From: an uncultured cyanobacterium
Lineage (GTDB): Bacteria; Cyanobacteriota; Cyanobacteriia; Cyanobacteriales; Microcystaceae
Assembly: GCA_903887375.1 (NCBI GenBank)
Contig: CAISPN010000015.1
Coordinates: forward strand, 1-45,082
Length of the DNA: 45,082 nt
Direction: 5' to 3'
The translations under genes were made by a program, and so were the position numbers. How positions within the stretch are numbered: position 1 is the stretch's first letter; the number at the start of each line of letters is the position of its first letter. Shown here one piece after another: positions 28,646 to 41,776 of the stretch. The notes under the pieces are model-generated. The model was not told where the DNA came from. It worked only from the letters and a program-made list of their open reading frames with translations, and ran no database searches.

Positions 28646-29030
28646 AATTCAGAAAAAAAAACTTACCATTAAGCAACAAGTTACCCAAGGCATTAAAAAT
28701 TTCTTAAATTAAGACATAAATAATCATTATTCAGATGCTTCAGGCTAATACTATTGTCCAGATTAACTCTATGCTAATAGATCTCAAGCGGGAATGAACC
28801 TAATTACTCGATCACTTTCTTCAAATCGAGTGAGAAACCAGGCAGAACTTCTTCACCTGATAGTTGAGTCTGAGCAGGTTGAAAGATTACTTAGTAAATA
28901 CAGACTCCCGAAGCTCTCCATGTTGCTCTGGGGGTTTAATCTCTCACACCAAGTGAGCTATTTGGGATTAGAATTAAGCTGGCATCTGTTGTGTAAAATC
29001 AGTAAGGCTAACTAGAACAAGGAGTGACCT
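28646..29030. other. Spacer between the kinase and heptosyltransferase genes
   Basis: 385 bp without a convincing gene. The left part is AT-rich and should hold the promoter of the kinase/HIRAN operon (minus strand). A 7-bp inverted repeat, ACTCGAT/ATCGAGT (28806-28812 and 28825-28831), and hairpin repeat copy B lie further right. A strong ribosome-binding site AAGGAG (29019-29024) precedes the next gene. A 73-codon frame at 28794-29015 runs through the repeat and resembles nothing I know. Confidence 0.6.
28905..28937 (+). repeat. Hairpin repeat, copy B
   Basis: CTCCCGAAGC (28905-28914) pairs with GCTCTGGGGG (28925-28934) with one mismatch and wobble pairs, around the loop TCTCCATGTT; TTT follows. 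It is the same element and orientation as 26819-26851, on the other side of the kinase/HIRAN operon. Confidence 0.7.
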
Positions 29031-29996
29031 ATGCGCATACTAGCCCTGATTCCCGGTGGAATAGGAGATCAGATCCTCTTCTTTCCCACTCTTGAGACGC
29101 TCAAGAGTAAATATCCTAAAAGTATTATTGATGTTATTGTTGAGCCGCGCTCTAAAGGAGCATATAGGATATGTCCTTGGGCGCATGAAGTTTTACTTTT
29201 TGACTATAAAGATCGTAATGGCCCAGCAGACTATCTCAATTTGCTCGGGATCATCCGCGATCGCGAATATGATATTGCCTTAGCTTTAGGTACTAACCCG
29301 GCAGTAGGTTTTCTTCTCTGGCTCGATGGTATATCAACTAGAGTAGGTTATCAAAGAAGCGATAAATCCTGGTTTATCAACAATCCTGCTCCGCTCAATA
29401 GCGATCAGTATGCTGCTTCTATGTATCATGATTTGCTCAAAGGTCTGCAGATTGATACCCCTACTCCTGCTTTAAAAGTAGTTGTTCCCAAAGATGATAT
29501 CAACTGGGCAAAACTAGAAGGAGAAAGGCTCAATCTTGGCGATAGGGGCTATGTCATTATTCATGGTGGCTCCAGTCAACTGGCCCAAAAAAAAGGAATA
29601 GACAAGATCTATCCTATAGAGAAATGGCAAGTTGTCATTGATGATCTCAGGCAAAAACAACCAGATCTGCCGATAGTGCTGATCAAAGGGCCAGAAGATG
29701 ATAATTTAGTAAAACAGCTTCTAGTCAATAGATTCTATCTCAAGGTGACATCTCCGCCGGACCTGGGCAAGCTGGCAGCGATGATTGCTGGAGCGAATCT
29801 GATGCTTTGCACCGATAGTGGTCCAATGCATATTTCTATAGCTGTAGGCACACCAACTATTGCCCTGTTTGGACCAACTCAGGTCAGCAAACTAATTCCT
29901 AGCAATCAAAATCGTTATATCGGCATTCAGTCTCCCACCGGTAAAATTGGCGATATCCAACCAGAAACTTTATTGAAAGAAATTTGGCGTGTCTAA
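29031..29996 (+). CDS. GT9-family ADP-heptose:LPS heptosyltransferase-like protein
   Basis: 321 residues. MRILALIPGGIGDQILFFPTL is the GT9 N-terminus with the donor-binding GGIGD. The C-terminal domain has IIHGGSS near 178, VLIKGPEDD near 221 and the TDSGPMHISIAVGTPTIALFGPT motif near 262-284. It should transfer heptose from an ADP-activated donor to LPS core or a related glycan. It overlaps gmhB by 8 bp and follows a strong ribosome-binding site. Together with hldA this suggests an ADP-heptose pathway. Confidence 0.9.
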   Translation: MRILALIPGGIGDQILFFPTLETLKSKYPKSIIDVIVEPRSKGAYRICPWAHEVLLFDYKDRNGPADYLNLLGIIRDREYDIALALGTNPAVGFLLWLDGISTRVGYQRSDKSWFINNPAPLNSDQYAASMYHDLLKGLQIDTPTPALKVVVPKDDINWAKLEGERLNLGDRGYVIIHGGSSQLAQKKGIDKIYPIEKWQVVIDDLRQKQPDLPIVLIKGPEDDNLVKQLLVNRFYLKVTSPPDLGKLAAMIAGANLMLCTDSGPMHISIAVGTPTIALFGPTQVSKLIPSNQNRYIGIQSPTGKIGDIQPETLLKEIWRV

Positions 29997-30609
29997 ACCT
30001 GCAGTATTTCTTGATCGCGACGGTGTACTTAATATAGAGGTGGGTTACGTCCACCAAATAGAGGATCTTCAACTTATAGCAGGCGCTGCCAAAGCAGTAC
30101 GAACCCTCAACGATTTGGGTTTTTTTTGCTGTGTGGTGTCCAATCAATCAGGGCCAGCGCGCAGCTACTATCCCAAATCACATGTAGATAATCTACATCG
30201 GCGACTTGTTGAACTTTTAGAGCAAGAAGGCAGCGCCAGATTAGACGCTATATACTATTGTCCCTACCTCAGCCCTGCCGCCGGAGGAACCAATCCAGAT
30301 TTCTCTGCCTGGAGCAGTTGGCGCAAACCCAATACCGGTATGCTCGTTGCCGCAGCATGGGAACACGATCTAGATTTATCTCAAAGTTTTATGATAGGCG
30401 ATAAAGCCACTGATATAGATATGGCCCATAATGCTGGTCTTACTAGTATTCTAGTGAGAACCGGCTATGGCGAATCTGTACTCAGTGGTAACTATCAACA
30501 CAGCACAAAACCCGACTATAGTAGCTCAGATTTACTTGATGCTGTCGATTGGATTAAGAAGAAGACGCATCTTCGGCCACAGAAGAAATCTCGCCAGGAT
30601 AGGATTTAA
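29989..30609 (+). CDS. gmhB: D-glycero-beta-D-manno-heptose 1,7-bisphosphate 7-phosphatase-like HAD protein
   Basis: 206 residues starting at GTG 29989 inside the end of the GT9 gene. HAD motifs: FLDRDGVLN (nucleophile and acid), [16 protein letters not shown] and [12 protein letters not shown]. This is the GmhB subfamily, which removes the 7-phosphate after HldA. The zinc loop of E. coli GmhB (CxH...CxC) is reduced here to a single cysteine ([12 protein letters not shown]), so it probably lacks zinc. Its last 56 bp overlap the end of minE on the other strand. Confidence 0.87.
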
Positions 30610-30871
30610 TCCTTTTAATGGGAAGATTGGCAATAAGAGCGGTAAAGCGCTGATCGCTTTCTAGAGAAAACTCCATAGCATCAGAATCTATTTCTACATA
30701 GCGGTTGACCACTTCCATGATTTCTCGACGCATGGATTCTAGCATGGCAGGATTCAAGCTGGCTCGATCATGAGCAATGATTAACTTGAGACGACGTCTA
30801 GCATCTTCTCCACTTTTAACAGGCTGTAGCCAAGAGAGCACACGTTCTAACATTCCTTTTAATACCTCCAT
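30554..30871 (-). CDS. minE: Cell division topological factor MinE
   Basis: 105 residues. The N-terminal membrane and MinD-binding helix is MLERVLSWL; then [18 protein letters not shown] (the MinD-activating region), and a C-terminal topological-specificity domain. It stimulates MinD ATPase and drives Min oscillation. It lies 11 bp after minD. The tail beyond about residue 92 is extended and is encoded in the overlap with gmhB. Confidence 0.96.
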
Positions 30872-30882
30872 TGGTCTAGGCG

Positions 30883-31686
30883 TTAAAATTTACGAGTAAA
30901 AAAACGCAGAATACGTTGGAAAAAGCCCTCACGCTTGGGTTTCAAGTTTAAGAAGGGGACATTTTTGCCCTCCAAGCGAGATGCTATATTCTTGATAGCA
31001 GTTGCCGGCAGACTAGTTTGTTCTTCTAAAACTATTGGCTCACCACGGTTAGTAGAAACAATAATTTGTTGATCATCAGGCACTACTCCTAGCAGGGGTA
31101 TGACCAAAAGATCCATGATATCTTCAACTGAGATCATCTGATTGAGTTGGATCATTTCAGGACGAACTCTATTGACAATCAGCCTGATTGTTTTAATGTG
31201 CTCAGATTCCATCAATCCTATAACCCTATCAGCATCGCGAACAGCCGCCATCTCAGGTGTGGTGACTATGATCGCTTCATCGGCCGGGGCGATGGCATTG
31301 CGAAAGCCCATCTCAATCCCAGCAGGACAGTCAATCAATATATAGTCATACTGCGGTTTCAATTGCTCTACCAGTTCCTTCATTTGTTCAGGACTGATGG
31401 CTTCTTTGGTTCGGTTTTGGGCTGCTGGCAGAAGTACCAGATTGGGCACTCTCTTGTCTCTCACAAGAGCTTTATCTAAACTGCATTCTCCAGATAATAC
31501 ATCAAGAGCTGTATAGACAATTCTCTGTTCAAGTCCAAGGAGCAGATCGAGATTTCTCAATCCAAAATCCGCATCTACTAGAGCAACTTTACGGCCTAGA
31601 CTAGCTAGAGCAGTTCCTAGATTTGCGGTAACTGTTGTTTTACCAACGCCCCCTTTGCCAGAGGTAATCACAATGACTCGATTCAT
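30883..31686 (-). CDS. minD: Septum site-determining ATPase MinD
   Basis: 267 residues. The deviant Walker [11 protein letters not shown] sits at 9-18, Walker B LIDCPAG near 118 and VNRVRPEM near 171. The C-terminal amphipathic membrane-targeting helix ([15 protein letters not shown]) is intact. It recruits MinC and MinE to the membrane. Its start overlaps minC by 4 bp. Confidence 0.97.
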
Positions 31687-32564
31687 ATGTCTTTATATAG
31701 ATTAAGAGGAGACTTTAAGACTTTATTTAGAATAGAAGATTTTGCTGCTATTTCAACTTTTAATTTAGGGAATTCTGTCACAGTTTCTAACCAATATCCA
31801 GTTGATTGTTGAAATTCATGATTTTTCTCAAAGCTAAAAGCCTTAGATAGAGCAATTCCCTCTTTTGTTAGATAGGCAATTTCAGGTTGCAAATCATCAG
31901 GATCAGGCGGCGCTACTCGCGCTACTGTATCAGCAATGCGGACCTGTGTAGGTTCCATTTTTAATGCAAATATGCGGCTTTCTTTTTCTCCATGGGATCC
32001 CGCATGAGCCACCCCACGCAGATGACCCCAGATGATAATATCTCCTCTAGCTACGACAGAACTACCTGGATTAACATCACCTAAAACAATCACTGTTCCA
32101 TTATGACGAATCTCTACCCCAGATCTAATTGTAGCTTTGAGATAGAGAGGCTCTAAAATATTGTTTTGCTCATCACTGAGAGGAAAAGGAACAAGTAGAT
32201 TAAATTGTTCAACTGAATAGCCTGCTGTTGCTGCAGCTACTGCTGTTTGTCTACGACTTGTTTTAATTACCGCTAGTTGAAGCCCAAATTGTTTGAGAAT
32301 ATCTGCCAGATTCTGGAGTTGTCTTGAATCAAGAAGATGATCTCCTGCTTGTAATAAAACTGACTGTTGAGCTGACCATTTGCGATCACTATGTTGAAGA
32401 AAGTATTTTAACTCTTGCCATAGCTCTTGCCACTGATTGGAACTATTGATAACTTGATTAGGGACAGTCAGTATATACCTGCCCTCCTCTTGTTTCAACT
32501 CAATACGACGAAGCTGGGGAGGTGATATCGATTCAAATTCAGAACCAGAATTTTCAGAACTCAT
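31683..32564 (-). CDS. minC: Septum site-determining protein MinC
   Basis: FtsZ-polymerisation inhibitor. The N-terminal domain is followed by the C-terminal beta-helix with TIRSGVEIRHNGTVIVLGDVNPGSSVVARGDIIIWGHLRGVAHAG-type sequence at about 165-210. ATG 32564 gives 293 residues; a GTG two codons earlier is the alternative. It is first in minC-minD-minE. The N-terminal half is longer and more variable than in E. coli, as usual in cyanobacteria. Confidence 0.93.
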   Translation of the reverse strand: MSSENSGSEFESISPPQLRRIELKQEEGRYILTVPNQVINSSNQWQELWQELKYFLQHSDRKWSAQQSVLLQAGDHLLDSRQLQNLADILKQFGLQLAVIKTSRRQTAVAAATAGYSVEQFNLLVPFPLSDEQNNILEPLYLKATIRSGVEIRHNGTVIVLGDVNPGSSVVARGDIIIWGHLRGVAHAGSHGEKESRIFALKMEPTQVRIADTVARVAPPDPDDLQPEIAYLTKEGIALSKAFSFEKNHEFQQSTGYWLETVTEFPKLKVEIAAKSSILNKVLKSPLNLYKDI

Positions 32565-32661
32565 GAGCACAATAATTTTAGTCGAGCTGATGAAACAACA
32601 TTGAATTCTTTAGAACAAACCTCAGTAGTGTTTCAATCTTAACTAATTCTAGCCTTAAGAG

Positions 32662-32695
32662 AAAAAAAAAGCAGAGAGAAAATCTCCCTCTCTGC
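32662..32695 (-). terminator. Rho-independent terminator of the porin gene
   Basis: GCAGAGAG (32671-32678) pairs perfectly with CTCTCTGC (32688-32695). On the minus strand nine T follow. It is 26 bp past the porin stop. Confidence 0.9.
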
Positions 32696-32720
32696 CTATA
32701 TTTAATAAACAGACCAAAAA

Positions 32721-34475
32721 CTAGAATGTAAAGGTTGTCCGGATTACCCCAATCCAAAGATTATCAGAGGTATTATTGGTACCGTAGTTGTTTGGATTAA
32801 AGATCACATACATAGCTGGAGTGATCTGGATATACTTTCCAATGGGGAAAGCATATTGGATCTGAGCAATGTAGGAAGCGTTGCGATCTTGAGAACCACT
32901 ACCAGGGTAGGTTTTAGGGAAATAGTTACCGGCTGTACCTGCAGCATTGGTGATACCATCAACTCCAAAAGCACTTGGGAGTAGACCACCACCGAAGGTC
33001 AACACTGAACCGGGAATACCTAAATCCAGAACGTTTAAAGCAGCGTTCCAGGTCCAGACATTACCATTGCGGTTGTTGATATCGAGGCTGGGATTACCGC
33101 CAATGTAGCCCTGTCCATGAGCTTGAGCAGTACCACCCCAAGCAGTGAAGTTGAATCCTTTAAAAGGAGTGATGGTTGTCTCAAGACCAAATCTATCAGC
33201 AGATACAGATCCGCCGTTGAAAGGATTATTACCAATAGGACTTCCTACAGTAAAGAGGTTGGGTGAAACTGCATCATAGGTGTGAACATAGGTCAAACCA
33301 AATTTAAATTCTTTAGCTGGGGCTATGTTTAGCTGAGTACCTGCAGTAAAACCACCACCAAAAAGTCCATTAGTTTGTCCTTTAGTAGGATTGGGATTAG
33401 AAGCAGTAGAAGATTTAGCCAAGTAAAAGGCATCCAAACTGATTTCTTTGATGAATTTATAGTTCAAAGCCAAACCCGTACCATCAGAGCTGGAGCGATA
33501 TACTAAATTGTTATAGCGCTCAGCACGCGAAACTGAACCAGTTCCACTAGATTGCAGGTAGGGGTTATAGGTATCCATAACATCATCTAGGTTGAGAGAG
33601 TTGGCACCTATGGTGACAGTCAAGTTTCCGACCGGGAATTTGTACCATAAATCATCAATAACTAGATTGTTATTAGTACCATCATCATATGCCAGACGAG
33701 CAGCAGGTACTCCTGTAGCGGTAAATAGAGCTTGGTTACCGTTACCAGCTTGCAGACGAACTTTGAGTTGATCTTTACCACTAAAGCTAGTCAAGAAGTT
33801 CAAACGAACACGGTCAGTAAACAGCACATTGTCACTGAAGCTGTAGTTTTTACCAGCAGTGCCGTTATTTCTCCAACTTCCGTAAGTACCTTCAATTCCA
33901 GCGCCACCAGAATAAGCTTCAGCAATACTGAAAATCACCTCACCTACAAGTTTAGTAGTAGTGGAGAATTGATGATCTTCTAAGAAGGCAACTCTTTGCT
34001 CTAGATTGTCGATCCGCGCGCCAAGGGCAGCTAGTTCACTTCTGAATTCTTGGGCTAATTTTTTGAGTCTTTCTACATCTTCAGGACTGACAGCATTCTC
34101 ACGGATTAGACGCTCCATGCTATTCATACAAGCGTTCAAACCGGCTGCGAATTCCCAACGAGTTAAAGGTTGATTTCCTCTATAAGTGCGATCAGGATAG
34201 CCTACAATACAGCCATAGCGCTCAACCAAACTTCTGAGAGCTTCATAAGCCCAATCAGTTGGGGCTACATCGCGTATTTCATTGACGCTGGTAACCTGAG
34301 CAAAAGAATTATTTTCAAAATTTGTATCGATGGTTTTGCTATGAGGATGCTGAGCCTGCTGAATCTTTTTGAGGATGTCTTGGTTAAGATTATCATCAGC
34401 TTTGGCTTGAGTTGCTACAGTTGCCAAAGCAAGGCACCCCAGCAACATAGGCAGGGATTTGACTAATGGTTTCAT
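32721..34475 (-). CDS. SLH-domain OprB-type outer-membrane porin (iron-uptake porin class)
   Basis: 584 residues. The signal peptide (1-26) ends TQAKA, then one SLH domain (about 66-110: VAPTDWAYEALRSLVERYGCIVGYPD, then LTRWEFAAGLNAC), a coiled coil (about 125-160, LGARIDNLEQRVAFLED) and a beta-barrel ending in the aromatic F of IGVIRTTFTF. This is the cyanobacterial Som/OprB-like porin; relatives are implicated in iron or small-solute uptake. Its promoter carries a PHO-box pair, so expression may rise under phosphate limitation. Confidence 0.93.
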   Translation of the reverse strand: MKPLVKSLPMLLGCLALATVATQAKADDNLNQDILKKIQQAQHPHSKTIDTNFENNSFAQVTSVNEIRDVAPTDWAYEALRSLVERYGCIVGYPDRTYRGNQPLTRWEFAAGLNACMNSMERLIRENAVSPEDVERLKKLAQEFRSELAALGARIDNLEQRVAFLEDHQFSTTTKLVGEVIFSIAEAYSGGAGIEGTYGSWRNNGTAGKNYSFSDNVLFTDRVRLNFLTSFSGKDQLKVRLQAGNGNQALFTATGVPAARLAYDDGTNNNLVIDDLWYKFPVGNLTVTIGANSLNLDDVMDTYNPYLQSSGTGSVSRAERYNNLVYRSSSDGTGLALNYKFIKEISLDAFYLAKSSTASNPNPTKGQTNGLFGGGFTAGTQLNIAPAKEFKFGLTYVHTYDAVSPNLFTVGSPIGNNPFNGGSVSADRFGLETTITPFKGFNFTAWGGTAQAHGQGYIGGNPSLDINNRNGNVWTWNAALNVLDLGIPGSVLTFGGGLLPSAFGVDGITNAAGTAGNYFPKTYPGSGSQDRNASYIAQIQYAFPIGKYIQITPAMYVIFNPNNYGTNNTSDNLWIGVIRTTFTF

Positions 34476-34598
34476 ATCTTGTCTCTCACACCTAAAAATA
34501 AGTTAATTATTCAGAGAAATAACTCTGCAAGCTATTCTAATGTCTTTTATAAAATTAAGTCAACAAAATACCTAATCTTTTTAGATTTTTTGTGAGAT

Positions 34599-34630
34599 TT
34601 TATACAATAAAAGGTTAAGAATAGGTTAAG
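34599..34630 (-). promoter_or_regulatory. PHO box and -10 upstream of the porin gene
   Basis: On the minus strand two perfect CTTAACCT units (34630-34623 and 34619-34612) are separated by ATT, an 11-bp period. Seven bases below is TATAAA (34604-34599), with a TG just before it. CTTAACCT repeats with 3-bp spacing are the described SphR (PhoB-type) site in Synechocystis. The box covers the -35 position, as in class II activation. No clear third unit is visible. Confidence 0.78.
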
Positions 34631-34645
34631 CCAAAAACATTAATT

Positions 34646-35314
34646 TTACTTTTTTGGTCCATTGACTATAAAAGATACTCTCTTACCAATATTGGTGGCA
34701 TGATCTGCCATGCGCTCTAAATATCTTATAGTTAGTCCCATCAACAATATTGGTTCTACATATCCTTGAATATCCTGTTGAAAAGCAAGATTATTGTAAA
34801 TTCTGCTGTAGGCATCATCAACTGTATCATCTAAAGTTTTGAGTTGGTTGCCAATTTCAGAATCGAGATCAGCTAAGCCTACTAGACTTCTAGCTAGCAT
34901 TAATTGGGCATGCAGTGACATTTGCTCTATTTCCTTGAGACAATCAAGAGGTGGATAGGCAAAGGATCTCACTGCTATTTCAGCCAAATCTTTAGAGTAA
35001 TCACCAATTCGCTCCAAATCACGCACTAGTTGCATATAGGCGCTCAGAAAGCGAAGATCTTGGGCTACGGGAGATTGCATACTCATCAACCTAGAACATT
35101 CATTCTCGATCTGGCGATAATAGCGATCAATACGTTTATCAAGCAAAGAAACTTTCTCAATTGCATCGAAATTCTGCTCAAAAAGAGCCCGATGGCTCAA
35201 GCGAAAGGAATCTTCAACTAAAGTTCCCATTCTTAAAACATCTTGTTCAAGTTCTTTAAGAGCGCGGCGAAAGTAGTTTAACTCCAAAGGATACTGTGAT
35301 TGCACGGCAAACAA
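34646..35314 (-). CDS. phoU: Phosphate signalling protein PhoU (SphU)
   Basis: 222 residues of the all-helical PhoU fold: two repeats, with RDLERIGDYSKDLAEIA near 99-115 and RYLERMADHATNIGKRV near 197-213, each providing the metal-binding E/D motif. In Synechocystis the homologue SphU restrains the SphS kinase when phosphate is ample. The assigned start at 35314 is TTG; GTG at 35305 is an alternative. It lies 85 bp after sphS on the same strand. Confidence 0.94.
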   Translation of the reverse strand: MFAVQSQYPLELNYFRRALKELEQDVLRMGTLVEDSFRLSHRALFEQNFDAIEKVSLLDKRIDRYYRQIENECSRLMSMQSPVAQDLRFLSAYMQLVRDLERIGDYSKDLAEIAVRSFAYPPLDCLKEIEQMSLHAQLMLARSLVGLADLDSEIGNQLKTLDDTVDDAYSRIYNNLAFQQDIQGYVEPILLMGLTIRYLERMADHATNIGKRVSFIVNGPKK

Positions 35315-35399
35315 TAATTACTGAAAAAGGACCTTCTTATAAGTATAATTTGCACTTTTAAAAGTTTAAAAAAAACGAAAAAATATTTCAGTCAAAAAT

Positions 35400-36623
35400 T
35401 TAGATAGGCTCTCTTGGCAGTGTTATTTTTAATAAAGCTCCACCGGTAGTGGGATGATTTTGGGCAGAAATAGTTCCTTGATGAGCATGAACAATTTTTT
35501 CTACTATTGAAAGACCCAAGCCATTTCCTTGATCTGATTTGTTGTGACTACCTCGGTAAAAACGCTCAAAGACATAGGGAATATCTTCTTGAGAGAAGCC
35601 ATCGCCTTGATCAAACACATCTATCTCTATGGTTGTAGCAGAAGAATTGATCAGCGCATCAATCTTGCCATCAGGAGTACTATGGTTGATCGCATTATCA
35701 AAAAGATTAGTAAAGACTTGGATGAGCCTATCTTTATCAGCTTTAATGTAAATCTGCTCTGGTCCAGTATAAGAAAAAGTGATCCTTGATTTTGAGGCTC
35801 TTGGCTCTAATTGCTGCCAAGTACTTTCAAGCAAATCATGTAGCTCAACCTCTTGGTAATTTAGACTTGGAGCTTCGTAAAATTGACTTAGATCTAGCCA
35901 TGTTCCTACCAAAGTCATCAGACGGCTGGTTTGAGAGAGAATTAAGCCTGACCATTTTTTATCTTGCCCTTGTAAACGCTCAAAGAGATTTTCAGATAAT
36001 AGAGAAATAGAAGTTAAAGGCGTCCTCAATTCATGCATTAAATCTGACATTGAGCGCTCCCAGTTTTTGCGCTCTTTGCTGAGGGTTTGTTGATTTTCCA
36101 GAAATACCCCCACATCTCCATTTTCCAACACATAGGAGGTAGCCTTTAAGGAGATCTTTTGATCGTTAGTGGTGTAGTAGATTGGATAAAATACCCATGA
36201 AAGGTTGAGCGATTCATTGAGAGCTCTAGTTTTTTCAATCAACTGATCCAATTCAGAAGAGCGGACCAATTCCAAAAGTAAACGCACCTGTCCATTTTGC
36301 CAACGATCAATAGAAAGAGTTTTTCTGGCATATTCATTGCACCAGATCAAATTATTTTTGCTATCAACTTGCAGGTAACCTACTGGAGCTTTTAAGAGCA
36401 AATCTTGCCATATTTGAGATTCTCTCAGCAAGGATTTGTTTTTTTCTTTAAGATAAAGTATCTCTCTGCGCACTAAAGAGGCAATAGAAAGCTCAGCTCT
36501 TTTGCCTTGGTAATCTGAGAGAGAATCTAGAATATCTTTGAGCTGAAAATTAATCTCCCTTTGGCTTAAGTAACTAATCAGCCAACCAATTGCAACGCCA
36601 CAAAGTAAAATAAGCAAGGACAT
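35400..36623 (-). CDS. sphS: Phosphate-sensor histidine kinase SphS
   Basis: 407 residues. N-terminal hydrophobic anchor (1-20), a PAS-like region (about 75-185, LKAPVGYLQVDSKNNLIWCN), then the kinase core: phosphoacceptor H197 in MSDLMHELRTPLTS, N-box DNAINHS near 316, G-box DQGDGFS and GNGLGLSI. The short N-terminal helix plus PAS arrangement is that of SphS/PhoR. It lies 4 bp after the response regulator and shortly before phoU, which makes the phosphate role likely. Confidence 0.9.
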   Translation of the reverse strand: MSLLILLCGVAIGWLISYLSQREINFQLKDILDSLSDYQGKRAELSIASLVRREILYLKEKNKSLLRESQIWQDLLLKAPVGYLQVDSKNNLIWCNEYARKTLSIDRWQNGQVRLLLELVRSSELDQLIEKTRALNESLNLSWVFYPIYYTTNDQKISLKATSYVLENGDVGVFLENQQTLSKERKNWERSMSDLMHELRTPLTSISLLSENLFERLQGQDKKWSGLILSQTSRLMTLVGTWLDLSQFYEAPSLNYQEVELHDLLESTWQQLEPRASKSRITFSYTGPEQIYIKADKDRLIQVFTNLFDNAINHSTPDGKIDALINSSATTIEIDVFDQGDGFSQEDIPYVFERFYRGSHNKSDQGNGLGLSIVEKIVHAHQGTISAQNHPTTGGALLKITLPREPI

Positions 36624-36627
36624 AGCA

Positions 36628-37380
36628 TCAACCTATGCGATAGCCAAAACCTCGCACAGTAGTAATGTATTCAGGTTGACTGGGATCTTTTTCCAGCTTT
36701 TCTCTCAACCAGCGGATATGAACATCTACAGTTTTAGTATCACCTAGAAAATCAACTCCCCAGATCTGTTCAATGAGTTGCTCTCGAGACCAGACCCTAC
36801 GAGGAGAAGCCATGAACAATTCCAATACACGAAACTCCTTAGGAGAGAGGCTAACTGGCTGCCCGCGCAGAAAAACCTGATGTTCCTTGGAAAGCAAGGT
36901 TATCTCTTTAAAACGATAAACCAAGGAATTAGTAAAAGAATGAAATGTCTGACGGCGCAGTAAAGCTCGGGTGCGAGCCAGCAACTCTTTAGTACTAAAT
37001 GGTTTGGTTAAATAATCATCAGCCCCAGCATCTAGCCCCAAAACCCGATCAGGTTCAGTAACTTTGGCACTAGTAATCAAGATAGGCACAAAATTACCTT
37101 GATAGCGCAGCAATCTACAGATATCCAGACCAGCAACCTCAGGTAACATCAAATCCAGAATAATCAGATCAAAAATTGATTCTGGAGGGCGCTTTTCTAT
37201 TGGCTGGAGCAATTTTAGAGCCTCATCACCGTTACTGACACTGACAACATCATAGCCCTCTTTTTGCAGAGCGATAGTGGTCATATCCCTGATAATTTCT
37301 TCATCTTCAACCACCAAAATCCGCGGATTCTGGGTTAAAGCAGGAAACGTGGGATTTTCGGGAATCTCAACTAAATTCAT
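36628..37380 (-). CDS. sphR: Response regulator SphR (PhoB/OmpR family)
   Basis: A receiver domain (ILVVEDEE start, phospho-acceptor D76 in IILDLMLP, K in YLTKPFS) and a winged-helix DNA-binding domain ending VDVHIRWLREKLEKD...VRGFGYRIG. The frame is open 25 codons further to 37455, but that part is hydrophobic and unlike the family, so ATG 37380 (250 residues) is chosen. It probably activates Pho genes through CTTAACCT boxes such as the one before the porin gene. Confidence 0.9.
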   Translation of the reverse strand: MNLVEIPENPTFPALTQNPRILVVEDEEIIRDMTTIALQKEGYDVVSVSNGDEALKLLQPIEKRPPESIFDLIILDLMLPEVAGLDICRLLRYQGNFVPILITSAKVTEPDRVLGLDAGADDYLTKPFSTKELLARTRALLRRQTFHSFTNSLVYRFKEITLLSKEHQVFLRGQPVSLSPKEFRVLELFMASPRRVWSREQLIEQIWGVDFLGDTKTVDVHIRWLREKLEKDPSQPEYITTVRGFGYRIG

Positions 37381-37497
37381 AAAAATCTTGGGAAAAATTA
37401 TTAAGTTAACAAATCTTGAGCAAAATCTTGACAAAACTATAAGATTAGAGACCACATAGTGGTAGATTGTCTTAGGGATTGAATCAAGGATATTGCT
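37381..37497. promoter_or_regulatory. Divergent promoter region of sphR and the GHL10 gene
   Basis: Three copies of ATCTTG lie on the plus strand at 37385, 37413 and 37425; the last two are 12 bp apart within AAATCTTGAGC and AAAATCTTGAC. A plus-strand -10-like TATAAG (37438) follows TTGAGC (37416) by 16 bp. ACCAC-ATA-GTGGT (37451-37463) is a small inverted repeat just below it. No CTTAACCT unit is present, so autoregulation by SphR is not evident. Confidence 0.4.
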
Positions 37498-39366
37498 ATG
37501 CGCTGGAGTTCACTTAAAAAAGTTTTGCTTGTTGCCAGTTGTATAATTTTGCCATCAACCTCGCTCAAGCTACCTGCTAGTGCCCGCAACCACGGTTTAA
37601 TCATAGCACAGCGCATCACCAACTCAACCCCAACCAATAGCGATGAAATAGTCTCTCTGCAAGAGGCATTAGAGAATTTAATTGCCAGGGTTGAGAGCAT
37701 TCTCATTGCCTCTAAAGCCAAAAACCCTGATAAAAATCAAACAGCAACCGAGCAGGCTATTGCTCAATCTAAAAGTAAACTGATAGATTTTAAGCAACTG
37801 GTTGCTCAAAGAGATTATAAACAAGCTAGAGAAGTTTGGTTACAAGCTAGACGCCTTCTCTGGGACAACTATCCCACAGATGCCAGATATAACCAGTCAG
37901 AAATCAGAGCAATCTGGCTTGATCGTGGTACTTTGGTCAATGCCAGAACCGAAGAAGATTTGGCAACTATATTTGATCGCCTTGCTCAATCAGGAATTAA
38001 TACAGTTTTTCTTGAAACAGTCAATGCCTCCTATCCCATTTATCCCAGCCACATTGCCCCTGAACAAAACCCCCTCACCAGAGGCTGGGATCGCTTAGCT
38101 GTAGCTACTAAACTAGCTCACCAGCGCAATATGGAATTGCATGCTTGGGTGTGGATCTTTGCCGCCGCCAATCAAGGACATAATAAAATACTGAACCTGC
38201 CCAAAACTTATCTAGGCCCAGTTCTCTCACGCCATAAAGATTGGGCTAATCTGAGCAGAAGTGGTGATTTTTTTGACCATAGTAGCCATAACAAAAAGGC
38301 CTTTTTTGACCCAGCTAATCCCCAAGCTCAAAAATATCTACTTGCTCTTCTAGAGGAAATTGCCACCAACTATGATGTTGATGGAATTCAACTAGACTAT
38401 ATACGCTATCCTTTTCAATCTAAAAGTGTAAATGGTTCTTTTGGCTATGGTCCATCTTCGCGCTGGCAATTTAAAAATAAAATGGGCGTCGATCCGCTCA
38501 AATTAACCCCCAAAAGTCCTCTTTGGAATAGCTGGTTAAATTTTCGTATTGGACTTGTAGATAGCTTTGTAGAAAAAGCCTCCACCCAACTCAAAGAAAA
38601 AAGACCAGATCTAGTAGTTAGCGCTGCCGTTTTTCCCTATGAGCGCAGTGAACGGCTTTGGAAAATCCAACAAAATTGGGAGCTTTGGGGCAGCAGCAAC
38701 TGGGTCGATATGTTAACTGTGATGACCTATGCGATGGATACTGATTCTCTCGGAGAAAAAACTCAGCCTCTACTAGGCAATATCTCCGCTGGCTCGGCTT
38801 TGATTATACCGGGGCTGAGAATTCTCAAAGTGCCAGATCCTGTAATGCTAGATCAGTTTCAACTGATGCGCAATATGCCATCTCTTGGCTATGTTCTCTT
38901 TGCCGCTGAGGGATTTAATAGTAATACCAATTTGCAAGAAATCCTCAATCGTACTCAAGGTTCAGCCCTAGAAAATAAAGCTGAGCCCATACCCTATCGT
39001 CATCCTTTCAAATCGGCCTATTGGCGCTATCAATCACTCCAAAGTGAATGGAATTTACTCATCACTCAAAATCTAATTAAAATAAGCCCCGAGGATCTTA
39101 AAGCTTGGCAGAAGCAATCCCAAGAGATTTCTACTCTTCTAGAGAGTTTAGCCAAAGTTCCCACCAATGAGAAAGTTAAAAAGGCCCAAGATCAACTAGT
39201 TGATTTTAATAGTAACTTTATGCTCTGGCTAGAGCACCAAAAGAGTATTTCTAGCTACCAGATAGCCGCTTGGCAAAGCCGCATGGCCTCAATTGGCAGA
39301 TTAATTAGCTATGGCGAGAGAACCGTCTTGGCTGAAAACAGGCTCAAGCTGGGCTCTAATAAATAA
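37498..39366 (+). CDS. Secreted GHL10/DUF187 glycosyl-hydrolase-like protein
   Basis: 622 residues. A signal peptide (about 1-31, ending PASA) is followed by a spacer, then a TIM-barrel GHL10 domain (about 135-480): EIRAIWLDRGTLVN at the start, the MELHAWVWIFAAA strand, FDPANPQAQKYL, and DVDGIQLDYIRYPF with the likely catalytic acid. The C-terminal 150 residues are helical. Family members are putative peptidoglycan- or glycan-active hydrolases; the substrate is unknown. Confidence 0.88.
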   Translation: MRWSSLKKVLLVASCIILPSTSLKLPASARNHGLIIAQRITNSTPTNSDEIVSLQEALENLIARVESILIASKAKNPDKNQTATEQAIAQSKSKLIDFKQLVAQRDYKQAREVWLQARRLLWDNYPTDARYNQSEIRAIWLDRGTLVNARTEEDLATIFDRLAQSGINTVFLETVNASYPIYPSHIAPEQNPLTRGWDRLAVATKLAHQRNMELHAWVWIFAAANQGHNKILNLPKTYLGPVLSRHKDWANLSRSGDFFDHSSHNKKAFFDPANPQAQKYLLALLEEIATNYDVDGIQLDYIRYPFQSKSVNGSFGYGPSSRWQFKNKMGVDPLKLTPKSPLWNSWLNFRIGLVDSFVEKASTQLKEKRPDLVVSAAVFPYERSERLWKIQQNWELWGSSNWVDMLTVMTYAMDTDSLGEKTQPLLGNISAGSALIIPGLRILKVPDPVMLDQFQLMRNMPSLGYVLFAAEGFNSNTNLQEILNRTQGSALENKAEPIPYRHPFKSAYWRYQSLQSEWNLLITQNLIKISPEDLKAWQKQSQEISTLLESLAKVPTNEKVKKAQDQLVDFNSNFMLWLEHQKSISSYQIAAWQSRMASIGRLISYGERTVLAENRLKLGSNK

Positions 39367-39388
39367 ATCTATGTTATTATTCTAAATA

Positions 39389-39480
39389 CCCGGACTCATG
39401 CGATTGCAACGCCTTAACCTTGTCAGAATCGGAAGGTAGCAGCAATATGGGATGCTTGTAATAGGCGTGAACTCCGGGCC
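39389..39480 (+). ncRNA. ffs: Signal recognition particle RNA, small bacterial type
   Basis: The hallmark apical sequence is present: TGTCAGAATCGGAAGGTAGC with AGCAG opposite (39421-39442). The long arm closes with CCCGGA (39389-39394) against TCCGGG (39473-39478) and ACGCC (39409-39413) against GGCGT (39464-39468). About 92 nt, the 4.5S size. It lies between the GHL10 gene and a small membrane protein gene. A possible -10 is in the TATTCTAAAT stretch just before it. Confidence 0.92.
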
Positions 39481-39494
39481 TTTAGTGAGCATTT

Positions 39495-39722
39495 ATGGAT
39501 GAAAATCAAAAACTAGGTCTATTTTTGTTGTTGATACCCATTGGCGGAGTCCTATACATAGGCTTGATCTTGCTAGTGATGCTATCTTCAGCCTGGGCTA
39601 GAGAACATCCCTTATTAATGGGAGCGCTTTTTGTCATCCTACCTTCATTACTCTCAGGTTCCATTTGGCTCAAATCCTCTCTCCAATTTAAAAGCCAACT
39701 GCCTGATTCCCAGAAAAACTAG
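39495..39722 (+). CDS. Small two-helix membrane protein, function unknown
   Basis: 75 residues with two hydrophobic helices (about 8-32 and 40-58) and a polar tail. It begins 14 bp after the SRP RNA. The last 69 bp overlap the end of coaX on the other strand. I do not recognise the family. A real gene is favoured by the two clean helices and neighbour-like codons; the ribosome-binding site is weak. Confidence 0.55.
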   Translation: MDENQKLGLFLLLIPIGGVLYIGLILLVMLSSAWAREHPLLMGALFVILPSLLSGSIWLKSSLQFKSQLPDSQKN

Positions 39723-40388
39723 ATTGGGATCGTAGATAAAATTTGCCCTGCCTTGGCTAATGAGCTTATAAAGATATTCTCCATCCCCGCCAGTAAAGAC
39801 AATATGACTTTGGCCAAATTGAGATTGCCAATTTTTTATAAATTCATTTAATCCTGCCAATATAAAATGTATGATTCCACTTTGGATCGCCTCGCTAGTG
39901 CTATTAGCCCAGTATGGTGGCAATGTTTCAGGGATCTTTGCCTTCGGTAGAGCTCCTGTGGCTTGAGTGAGCAAATCAAATTGTAAACCCAATCCAGGTA
40001 AGATTGCTCCTCCTACAAATTCTCCAGAGTTAGACAGCGCGCTTAAAGTCAAGGCAGTTCCCGCATCAATAACTAGAGCTGGAGTGCCATAATTGGCCAT
40101 TGCTCCTGATAAAGCCAAAGCCCTGTCTATACCCAAAGTAGGATAGCTATTTTTTAAGTTGATATGATGTAGCTCAATTATTTGGGCGTTGGGATAATTT
40201 TGCCAAAGCAAGGTTTTTTTAGGGACAACTGAGGCAATCAGCACAGGAGAGCCAGCAAAATCAAAACCAGCTTGCTCATATTGGCTATGGTATGTCTTTA
40301 ATATTTCTCTACCTTGAAAATGGGCACAGTGAGTGCGGCTGTTACCCAACAAGAGCCCGTACCACTGCGAAGTCTCAGAAATATTCAA
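39654..40388 (-). CDS. coaX: Type III pantothenate kinase
   Basis: First step of coenzyme A synthesis. 244 residues of the ASKHA fold: LLLGNSRTH near 13-21, LGIDRALALSGA near 92, VIDAGTALTLSAL near 113 with the key acid, GAILPGLGLQFDLL near 131 and FTGGDGEYL near 208. The first motif is usually DxGNT; here the acid is replaced (LLLGNS), which resembles other cyanobacterial CoaX proteins. Its end overlaps the small membrane protein gene. Confidence 0.9.
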   Translation of the reverse strand: MNISETSQWYGLLLGNSRTHCAHFQGREILKTYHSQYEQAGFDFAGSPVLIASVVPKKTLLWQNYPNAQIIELHHINLKNSYPTLGIDRALALSGAMANYGTPALVIDAGTALTLSALSNSGEFVGGAILPGLGLQFDLLTQATGALPKAKIPETLPPYWANSTSEAIQSGIIHFILAGLNEFIKNWQSQFGQSHIVFTGGDGEYLYKLISQGRANFIYDPNLVFLGIRQLAFKLERGFEPNGT

Positions 40389-40441: not shown

Positions 40442-41776
40442 ATGTCTGAGCAAGAGTTAATAATTCAAACTATTCAAACAAAAGCGCTTGATAGGCTCCA
40501 AGAGCTGCTCGATAGAGGATCAGATCCCGACACTCTGGTCCAAAACTCAATGAGCGCTCTACTCTATGCTCTAAAAAATAAAGACATAGCTATTGTCAAA
40601 ATATTATTAGAAGCCGGGGCTAATCCAAATTTGAGTCAATCCCCTCCAGGGCTGAGCCCCTTGATGCTGGCCGCTGCAACCGAGCAGGAAGAAGCTATAG
40701 ATCTTTTACTGAAATTTGGCGCTCAGCTCAATCAGGTCAATGAAGATGGCTCTCCCGCTTTGATGGCCGCTGCTTATCAAGGCAATATCCAGATTCTCTC
40801 AAGTTTACTTAAAGCGGGCGCTTTGCCCAATCTAGAAGATAAAGATGGTGATACGGCTCTCAATATTGCCATCAAGCGTGGACATCTTGAAGCAGTTGGA
40901 GTTTTGCTAGAAGCAGGCGGCGATCCTTATTGTGGTCTGGGCGCCTTGCAGATTGCTTTAAGGCAAAAACAACAGAACATTGTCAAGCTACTAGTTGATC
41001 GACAAATCAAGATTAATCAACCAAACCGTCAGGGGATCACAGCTCTAGATGTGGCAATTCGTACTCATCAGCATAGCTTCCTGGATTATGCTTTAAAAAA
41101 AGGCTACTCTCAAACCCTGGGCGATACTTTTTTAGCTGCAGTAGCTGAAAGAGAATTCTCCCTTGTCTTGCTTTTACTTGAATCAGGAATAGATATTGAA
41201 ACTAAAGATGAAGATGGCTCTAGTGCTTTGCATTTGGCTTGTTTAGAAGGCCATTTTGAGATAGCTAGAATTCTCCTAAGCGCCGGGGCTAATCCCAATG
41301 CTAAAGATAATATTGGCGATACTCCTTTAGTTTTAGCCAGTTTGCACGGGCATGGCTGGATTGTGCAGATTCTCCTAGAATATGGCGCAGACGCCAGCTC
41401 TGGCAATCCTTTATCTTTAGCTCTATCGCGCGATGATTGGCAAGTGGCTACTATTTTATTAATGGGAGGAGCTGATCCTAATATCATTCTTGAAAATGGC
41501 AAAACTGTTCTAGCCCATGCCGTGACTACAGACAAAATAGAACTAGTCAAGCTTGTTTTGCAAGCTGGCGCCGATGTCAATCTTGTAGATTATAGTGGCT
41601 CTAGCCCATTGATGTGGGCTAGCCACCAGGGCAATCTGGCGATAATCCGACAACTACTTTCGATTGATGGTATTGCTTTGGATTTAAAAAACCGCGGTGG
41701 TTATACAGCCCTTGGCATAGCCACTTCTAACAAAAATCAACAAGTTTTCGAGCTTCTTACTCAAGCAGGGGCTTGA
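40442..41776 (+). CDS. Ankyrin-repeat protein
   Basis: 444 residues made almost entirely of ankyrin repeats (about 12-13 units of 33, for example GASPLxLAxxxGH and VxxLLxAGADPN variants). A sample unit is DGSSALHLACLEGHFEIARI near 258. No signal peptide and no other domain, so it is a cytoplasmic scaffold of unknown partner. It converges on the NACHT gene, with the last 20 bp overlapping. Confidence 0.9.
   Translation: MSEQELIIQTIQTKALDRLQELLDRGSDPDTLVQNSMSALLYALKNKDIAIVKILLEAGANPNLSQSPPGLSPLMLAAATEQEEAIDLLLKFGAQLNQVNEDGSPALMAAAYQGNIQILSSLLKAGALPNLEDKDGDTALNIAIKRGHLEAVGVLLEAGGDPYCGLGALQIALRQKQQNIVKLLVDRQIKINQPNRQGITALDVAIRTHQHSFLDYALKKGYSQTLGDTFLAAVAEREFSLVLLLLESGIDIETKDEDGSSALHLACLEGHFEIARILLSAGANPNAKDNIGDTPLVLASLHGHGWIVQILLEYGADASSGNPLSLALSRDDWQVATILLMGGADPNIILENGKTVLAHAVTTDKIELVKLVLQAGADVNLVDYSGSSPLMWASHQGNLAIIRQLLSIDGIALDLKNRGGYTALGIATSNKNQQVFELLTQAGA

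Follow-up and report, generated by a model that had tools for sequence, protein, structure and literature searches.

A predicted SphR-binding Pho box between phoU and a som-type porin gene in an uncultured cyanobacterium, kept in its genus and accompanied by similar boxes at phoU-porin loci of relatives

A direct repeat of two units, CTTAACCT-ATT-CTTAACCT, lies between phoU and a som-type porin gene on the minus strand (34630-34612) of the window, by which we mean the whole 45,082-nucleotide stretch of uncultured cyanobacterial DNA analyzed here. The repeat is very likely a working Pho box bound by the response regulator SphR (PhoB), and we consider it likely that SphR at this site raises transcription of the adjacent porin gene when phosphate is scarce. 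An earlier sequence-only reading of the window had proposed a phosphate starvation-responsive porin, and that proposal is supported by conservation of the box in the genus, by a comparison of phoU loci with and without a porin, and by the presence of phoX in four of those loci.

The genes concerned run on the minus strand in the order sphR, sphS, phoU, a 170-bp gap, porin, minC, and minD, so that the Pho regulators do lie upstream of the porin on the same strand, as had been claimed. The sphR/phoB-type response regulator gene (37455-36628) and the sphS/phoR-type histidine kinase gene (36623-35400) are assigned by rank, with PhoB- and PhoR-type models placed first and the curated cutoffs not reached: the best model for the regulator was PhoB TIGR02154 (229.2 bits; cutoff, 296.2), and the best models for the kinase, PnpS and PhoR, also scored below their cutoffs. 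PhoU (35314-34646) exceeded the cutoff of TIGR02135 with 161 bits. The porin gene (34475-32721) encodes a 584-amino-acid outer-membrane protein of the som/OprB type with an SLH domain, and PF04966 (OprB) and PF00395 (SLH) were both over the gathering score. The protein scored 507.5 bits (cutoff, 100) for the NCBIfam family NF033921, "iron uptake porin," which agrees with its earlier placement in a class discussed for iron uptake; for this porin the words "iron uptake" rest on the family annotation. Elsewhere in the window, an Rfam scan of positions 29000 to 40000 returned a bacterial small SRP RNA gene (39387-39483; RF00169, 56.7 bits) and nothing besides, and an ankyrin-repeat-rich protein of 444 amino acids is encoded at 40442-41776.

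The Pho box starts 15 bp past the end of phoU, and 136 nt separate it from the porin ATG (34475). Its 8-bp units of consensus CTTAACCT are spaced by 3 bp and recur with an 11-bp period, as in cyanobacterial SphR sites. The window site departs from the cyanobacterial Pho box of three tandem units in that its third unit, ATTGTATA, lacks a TTAA core; the SphR reading is weakened by this, since only two good units are present whereas the published Synechocystis sites have three. We scored sites with a unit matrix for which 26 of 30 rows in Table 1 of Su et al. 2007 (PMC1906773) were used, none of them a site at a gene named porin; the rows omitted were three from PCC 7942, which duplicate those of PCC 6301, and that of CCMP1375, a site whose function the authors thought unlikely. 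With this motif the porin-promoter box (P = 0.001) was by a wide margin the top two-unit site of the window (21.2 bits, against 12.7 for the runner-up). The exact box, as the sequence-only reading had described it, was found once (0 mismatches) in the genome assembly of 2,931,435 bases in 124 contigs, where a first-order Markov model of the window predicts 0.0027 exact matches by chance. When up to three mismatches were allowed, the genome contained 49 matches, compared with 38 for the reversed pattern, as might be seen if the repeat were a chance match in AT-rich DNA. Because these counts barely differ, only near-perfect matches carry weight. A chance match is contradicted by the rarity of the exact box, its conservation in the genus, and the comparison of loci given below, and we rejected this explanation, the probability of which we regard as negligible.

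With up to one mismatch, four matches were present in the genome, one of which precedes a pstS-type gene. As a classical SphR target, this gene is the positive control to be expected, and its box likewise shows just two good units as judged by eye. OmpR-family regulators bind direct repeats, and the porin box might be read by another member of the family, such as RpaB, or by SphR acting as a repressor. PhoB and RpaB were both reported to bind the sodB promoter in a yeast one-hybrid screening in Synechocystis (PMC11126600). However, the unit and the 11-bp period fit the published SphR consensus, given as CTTAACCT with a 3-bp linker (PMC1906773), and a like box precedes pstS in the same genome, so that a different reader or a repressing SphR appears very improbable. 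No box was found in the 300 bp upstream of sphR itself (P = 0.88).

Further box-like sites were seen in the same genome. A near-perfect box, TTTAACCTATTCTTAACCT, whose sole difference is an initial T in place of C, lies at 5248-5266 of contig C121 (L127, 3749-3767). Approximately 240 bp downstream follows a glutamate synthase gene, a possible but unexpected target without an obvious phosphate link. On C66, a four-unit Pho-box-like array (L129, 502-542) precedes a type I phosphodiesterase gene (610-2337), which is probably a further member of the Pho regulon. On C13, eight TTTAACCT/TTTAAACT units with an 11-bp period (L133, 2273-2357) resemble a Pho-box array in extended form; 43 bp downstream of them comes the first start of an open reading frame for a 743-amino-acid FG-GAP repeat protein, which is cut by the contig end. 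A box-like site on C97 precedes a DUF2382 gene, for which a link to phosphate is not obvious.

The box has been kept at this porin in the genus, being present in the phoU-porin gap of all three members compared, namely the window and the loci L045 and L046. In L045 it reads CTTAACCT-TTT-GTTAACCT, with 15 of 16 letters retained, and stands 136 nt before the ATG as in the window. In L046 it reads CTTAACCT-AAT-CTTAACTT, again with 15 of 16 letters; the two units end 170 nt before the ATG and are followed by a third unit, GTTAATTA, which carries a third TTAA core.

We then scored 87 phoU loci against dinucleotide-preserving shuffles. These loci were the best 80 in a PhoU ranking of 541 relatives, the nearest named ones by phoU being the uncultured cyanobacterium isolates Ki2-D3_bin-0622 and PMM_0086, together with seven linked-porin loci from another set of 30 (L009, which is the window, and L012, L015, L018, L020, L030, and L034), the porin-less loci of that set not entering the controls. 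Among these best 80 of 541 plus seven, a three-unit box (P ≤ 0.01) was detected in 36 of the 53 phoU-porin loci and in 0 of the 34 without a porin seen after phoU (Fisher P = 9e-12), none of the 34 reaching even P ≤ 0.05. Eight of the 34 controls were Microcystis, and 12 had less than 5 kb available after phoU. With three close pairs reduced to a single locus each, the counts were 33/50 versus 0/34 (5e-11); the loci are related and their counts are not independent, so both Fisher values overstate independence, and loci with a long gap were tested in two places and the others in one.

Where the gap was shorter than 700 bp, the three-unit box was found on the porin strand in 18 of 28 loci at P ≤ 0.01, versus 2 of 28 on the opposite strand, and in 22 versus 8 at P ≤ 0.05. 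The 10 short-gap loci without it at P ≤ 0.01 were L012, L015, L018, L020, L054, L056, L057, L059, L064, and L111; L052 of Crocosphaera watsonii passes this threshold, yet with a low score. Where the gap was longer, 17 of 25 loci had a three-unit box at P ≤ 0.01 within 450 bp past phoU (reverse strand, 2/25), and 7 of 25 had none at this threshold in either place tested. Since the 450 bp upstream of the far porins were positive in just 1 of 25, the box of the long-gap loci belongs to the first gene after phoU, and control of the porin there assumes read-through, because the box mostly precedes another gene. The exception is L083, in which a TnpB-type gene sits between phoU and the box, and the three-unit box has stayed with the porin, within 450 bp of it. 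L090 is a second insertion case of the same layout with a weaker porin-side box (P = 0.016) and was excluded from the 36. In most long-gap loci, a same-strand gene of 188 to 750 amino acids intervenes between phoU and the porin. In four of them (L069, L080, L084, and L107) it encodes a PhoX alkaline phosphatase of 727 to 750 amino acids, and the preceding box has P values of 0.002 to 0.008 in three and of 0.018 in L084. Among the intervening genes of about 200 amino acids, both of those tested (L066 and L089) encode Crp-type regulators, which the remaining proteins of this size resemble in their first residues.

The linked porins also form a group by descent. In a tree of 80 porins, all 51 rows labeled as phoU linked fell into one clade with a support of 0.957; these rows include the window and a fragment from the genus member G001, count one gene twice (L018 and L156), and omit linked porins, L046 and L082 among them, of which the locus contains too short a piece. 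Eight rows without the label also lie inside the clade, namely L148, which lies as a second porin in tandem at the G009 phoU locus, six from elsewhere in the relatives, and L043, a long-branched porin of the genome to which the window belongs; the remaining 21 porins lie outside. We also surveyed 34 porin upstream regions from nine relatives and the window genome's own paralogs; L139, which yielded no sequence upstream, was dropped, and the survey covered those porin matches for which a locus was available. After exclusion of the phoU-linked L138, L144, L149, and L156, of L044 (the same gene as L042), and of L148, none of the 28 distinct unlinked upstream regions reached P ≤ 0.01 for three units, and four (L140, L142, L164, and L165) reached P ≤ 0.05; L140 and L164 reached P ≤ 0.01 for two units. 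Likewise, none of the four distinct paralogous porins of the window's own genome had a significant three-unit box. One porin gene of this genome (C101; L173, 2556-5147) lies directly downstream of a gene for a PstS-like binding protein (PF12849); in the tree its product has a long branch within the phoU-linked clade, and a significant Pho box is absent. In the genus member G002, a ZnuA-ABC-permease set for metal transport is followed by a porin gene (L174, 2434-6630), which suggests an operon in which a metal importer has a porin of its own.

The sequence-only reading had placed a TATAAA box 7 bp past the Pho box and about 125 bp before the porin start. The hexamer is at 34604-34599 on the minus strand, 123 nt from the ATG, and would be the -10 element of a Pho-dependent promoter, P1. 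Its geometry at the box would suit a promoter, but it is not kept in the closest relative, L045, in which the position reads TTGTCA. At the box-bearing loci more widely, TAnnnT stands 8 bp past the third unit in 17 of 33, many of them from Nostoc relatives (33 of the 35 loci with P ≤ 0.01 were counted, the near copies L077 and L117 being omitted). The earlier reading had missed this lack of conservation, and with it a sigma70-type promoter, P2, of the form TTGACT-18-TAGAAT (34563-34534, minus strand; 10 of 12 matches), the best of three sites in 34400-34700. The P2 hexamers are identical in L045 (spacer, 18) and L046 (spacer, 17), and the -35 element lies 48, 47, and 77 bp past the two-unit box in the window, L045, and L046, respectively; these values were taken from the unaligned gaps, MAFFT having misplaced the box and the -35 element of L046. 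Because TATAAA is unconserved while the P2 hexamers are kept in the genus, we suggest that the gene has two promoters: P1 at the box, which has a plausible geometry though it is unconserved, and P2, which is probably the conserved, basal promoter of the porin gene.

An alternative is that P2 is the main driver of an essentially constitutive porin gene and that the two-unit box is what is left, in weak or decaying form, of a site with three units. The third unit is poor in the window while L046 retains a third TTAA core, the P2 hexamers and not TATAAA are the same in the three genus members, and All4499 of Anabaena, by our assignment a linked porin, was reported to be among the two most abundant outer-membrane porins (PMC9705863). 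Decay, however, is not what the two units suggest, as both hold 15 to 16 of 16 letters in all three genus members, and the pstS box of the same genome has two good units as well. Therefore, we regard a constitutive porin with a remnant box as unlikely.

The leader of the porin mRNA contains a second candidate element, also overlooked earlier. The sequence GGTGTGAG (34492-34485, minus strand) is complementary to CUCACACC of the small RNA Yfr1, and the same genome encodes a Yfr1 (RF01116, 51.7 bits) containing this sequence. A complement of the motif near the start codon thus occurs together with a Yfr1 gene, and the leader is a predicted Yfr1 target. GTGTGAG was found no more than 60 nt from the estimated start in 47 of the 53 linked loci, and 7 to 19 nt before it in 45; further upstream it occurred twice in 21,773 nt. 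The motif is not peculiar to linked porins, being present in 13 of the 34 surveyed porin upstream regions, linked ones included. In Prochlorococcus, the mRNAs of two porins are reported to be acted on by Yfr1; for Nostoc, all4499 and alr4550 have been predicted as its targets (PMC6974561, PMC6778093).

With SphR as an activator, the elements of the locus would work together as follows. SphS would sense low phosphate and phosphorylate SphR, which would then bind the box and recruit RNA polymerase. Transcription might start at a Pho-dependent site just downstream, with TATAAA in the species of the window, or SphR might stimulate the conserved P2, which in phosphate-rich cells would supply basal porin expression. 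Yfr1, acting on the leader, would hold porin translation down and so tune its level. We tentatively extend this to the whole order, which may carry a dedicated, vertically kept lineage of phosphate starvation porins, in physical linkage with sensor genes of its own (sphR-sphS-phoU-Pho box-[phoX or Crp regulator]-porin) and under double control, by SphR at the promoter and by Yfr1 on the mRNA. Such a lineage, now annotated as iron porins, could be the missing outer-membrane entry of the phosphate system.

What the pore carries bears on that proposal. It is quite possible that the porin is regulated as described and that its job under phosphate limitation is to supply iron or ions in general, for instance to iron-dependent enzymes; this alternative concerns the cargo and is therefore compatible with SphR control. 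PhoX is an iron- and calcium-dependent enzyme, and its gene sits in the locus of four relatives. The family is named for iron uptake, a slr1908 mutant of Synechocystis contained approximately 40% less iron (PMC8707739), a knockdown of the PhoB-induced Slr1908 was reported to grow worse under low iron (PMC11126600), and the all4499 transcript was reported to rise on iron deprivation (PMC9705863). On the other hand, the neighborhood of SphR, SphS, and PhoU points to phosphate, about 80% of the uptake of inorganic ions in Synechocystis has been ascribed to three porins of this kind (PMC8707739, citing Kowata), and in the Anabaena porin study no relation to iron uptake could be established (PMC9705863). 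In a Nostoc strain, the type and specificity of the porins for the outer-membrane phosphate step were said in 2020 to "remain obscure" (PMC7564538). The linked porin clade offers a concrete candidate for this step, which in PCC 7120 would be All4499; it would also connect a pore family with an iron annotation to phosphate starvation and so bear on iron/phosphorus colimitation.

Our literature search, which left aside supplements and most subscription papers, did not find a conserved sphR-sphS-phoU-box-porin locus described in the text available. One report counts against our reading: the Trichodesmium porin Tery_4515 has a predicted box and showed no rise under phosphate deficiency (PMC6411698). 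In contrast, a som gene of Crocosphaera watsonii was reported to be induced under phosphate limitation (PMC12260270). The outer-membrane pore PhoE of the Escherichia coli Pho regulon is alike in function (PMC12260270), although the E. coli Pho box differs in sequence from the cyanobacterial one (PMC1906773).

For Anabaena/Nostoc sp. strain PCC 7120, phoU, sphS, and sphR are listed as all4501, all4502, and all4503 (PMC7564538). All4499 is a porin (PMC9705863) whose tag adjoins these three, and it is therefore the probable linked porin of this strain. It is of the OprB type, its tag order beside phoU-sphS-sphR matches the linked order in L115 of Anabaena subtropica, and it is a predicted Yfr1 target like the window porin (PMC6974561). 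It differs in having been studied for metals, and between phoU and the porin L115 has a gene that resembles the Crp-type ones of L066 and L089.

The marine picocyanobacterium Prochlorococcus has a Pho-responsive porin with a predicted site, which we liken to the window porin by description; we take PMM0709 to be this PhoE. Su et al. list transporter and porin candidates, and their Table 2 includes PMM0709 among genes that have a predicted SphR site (PMC1906773). PhoE protein was reported to increase more than 15-fold at low phosphate in strain MIT9312, whereas PhoE was not seen in NATL2A in that study (PMC3349580).

A close parallel in mechanism comes from Synechocystis sp. strain PCC 6803, in which the iron-selective Slr1908 is an SLH/OprB porin like that of the window (PMC8707739). 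PhoB (slr0081) was reported to bind the slr1908 promoter, phosphate deficiency in the presence of iron induced the gene 7.5-fold, and induction was reduced in a phoB mutant; PhoB bound less well or not at all once any one of the three TTAA cores was mutated, and porin genes with putative PhoB sites in other cyanobacteria are said to be listed in a supplementary table (PMC11126600). The site motif of that paper has three units, versus two in the window, and in the text available slr1908 is not said to adjoin Pho regulators, as the porin gene described here does. Pho-regulated porins are already known, in Slr1908 and Prochlorococcus PhoE, and what the present comparison adds to them is a conserved locus and a predicted double control.
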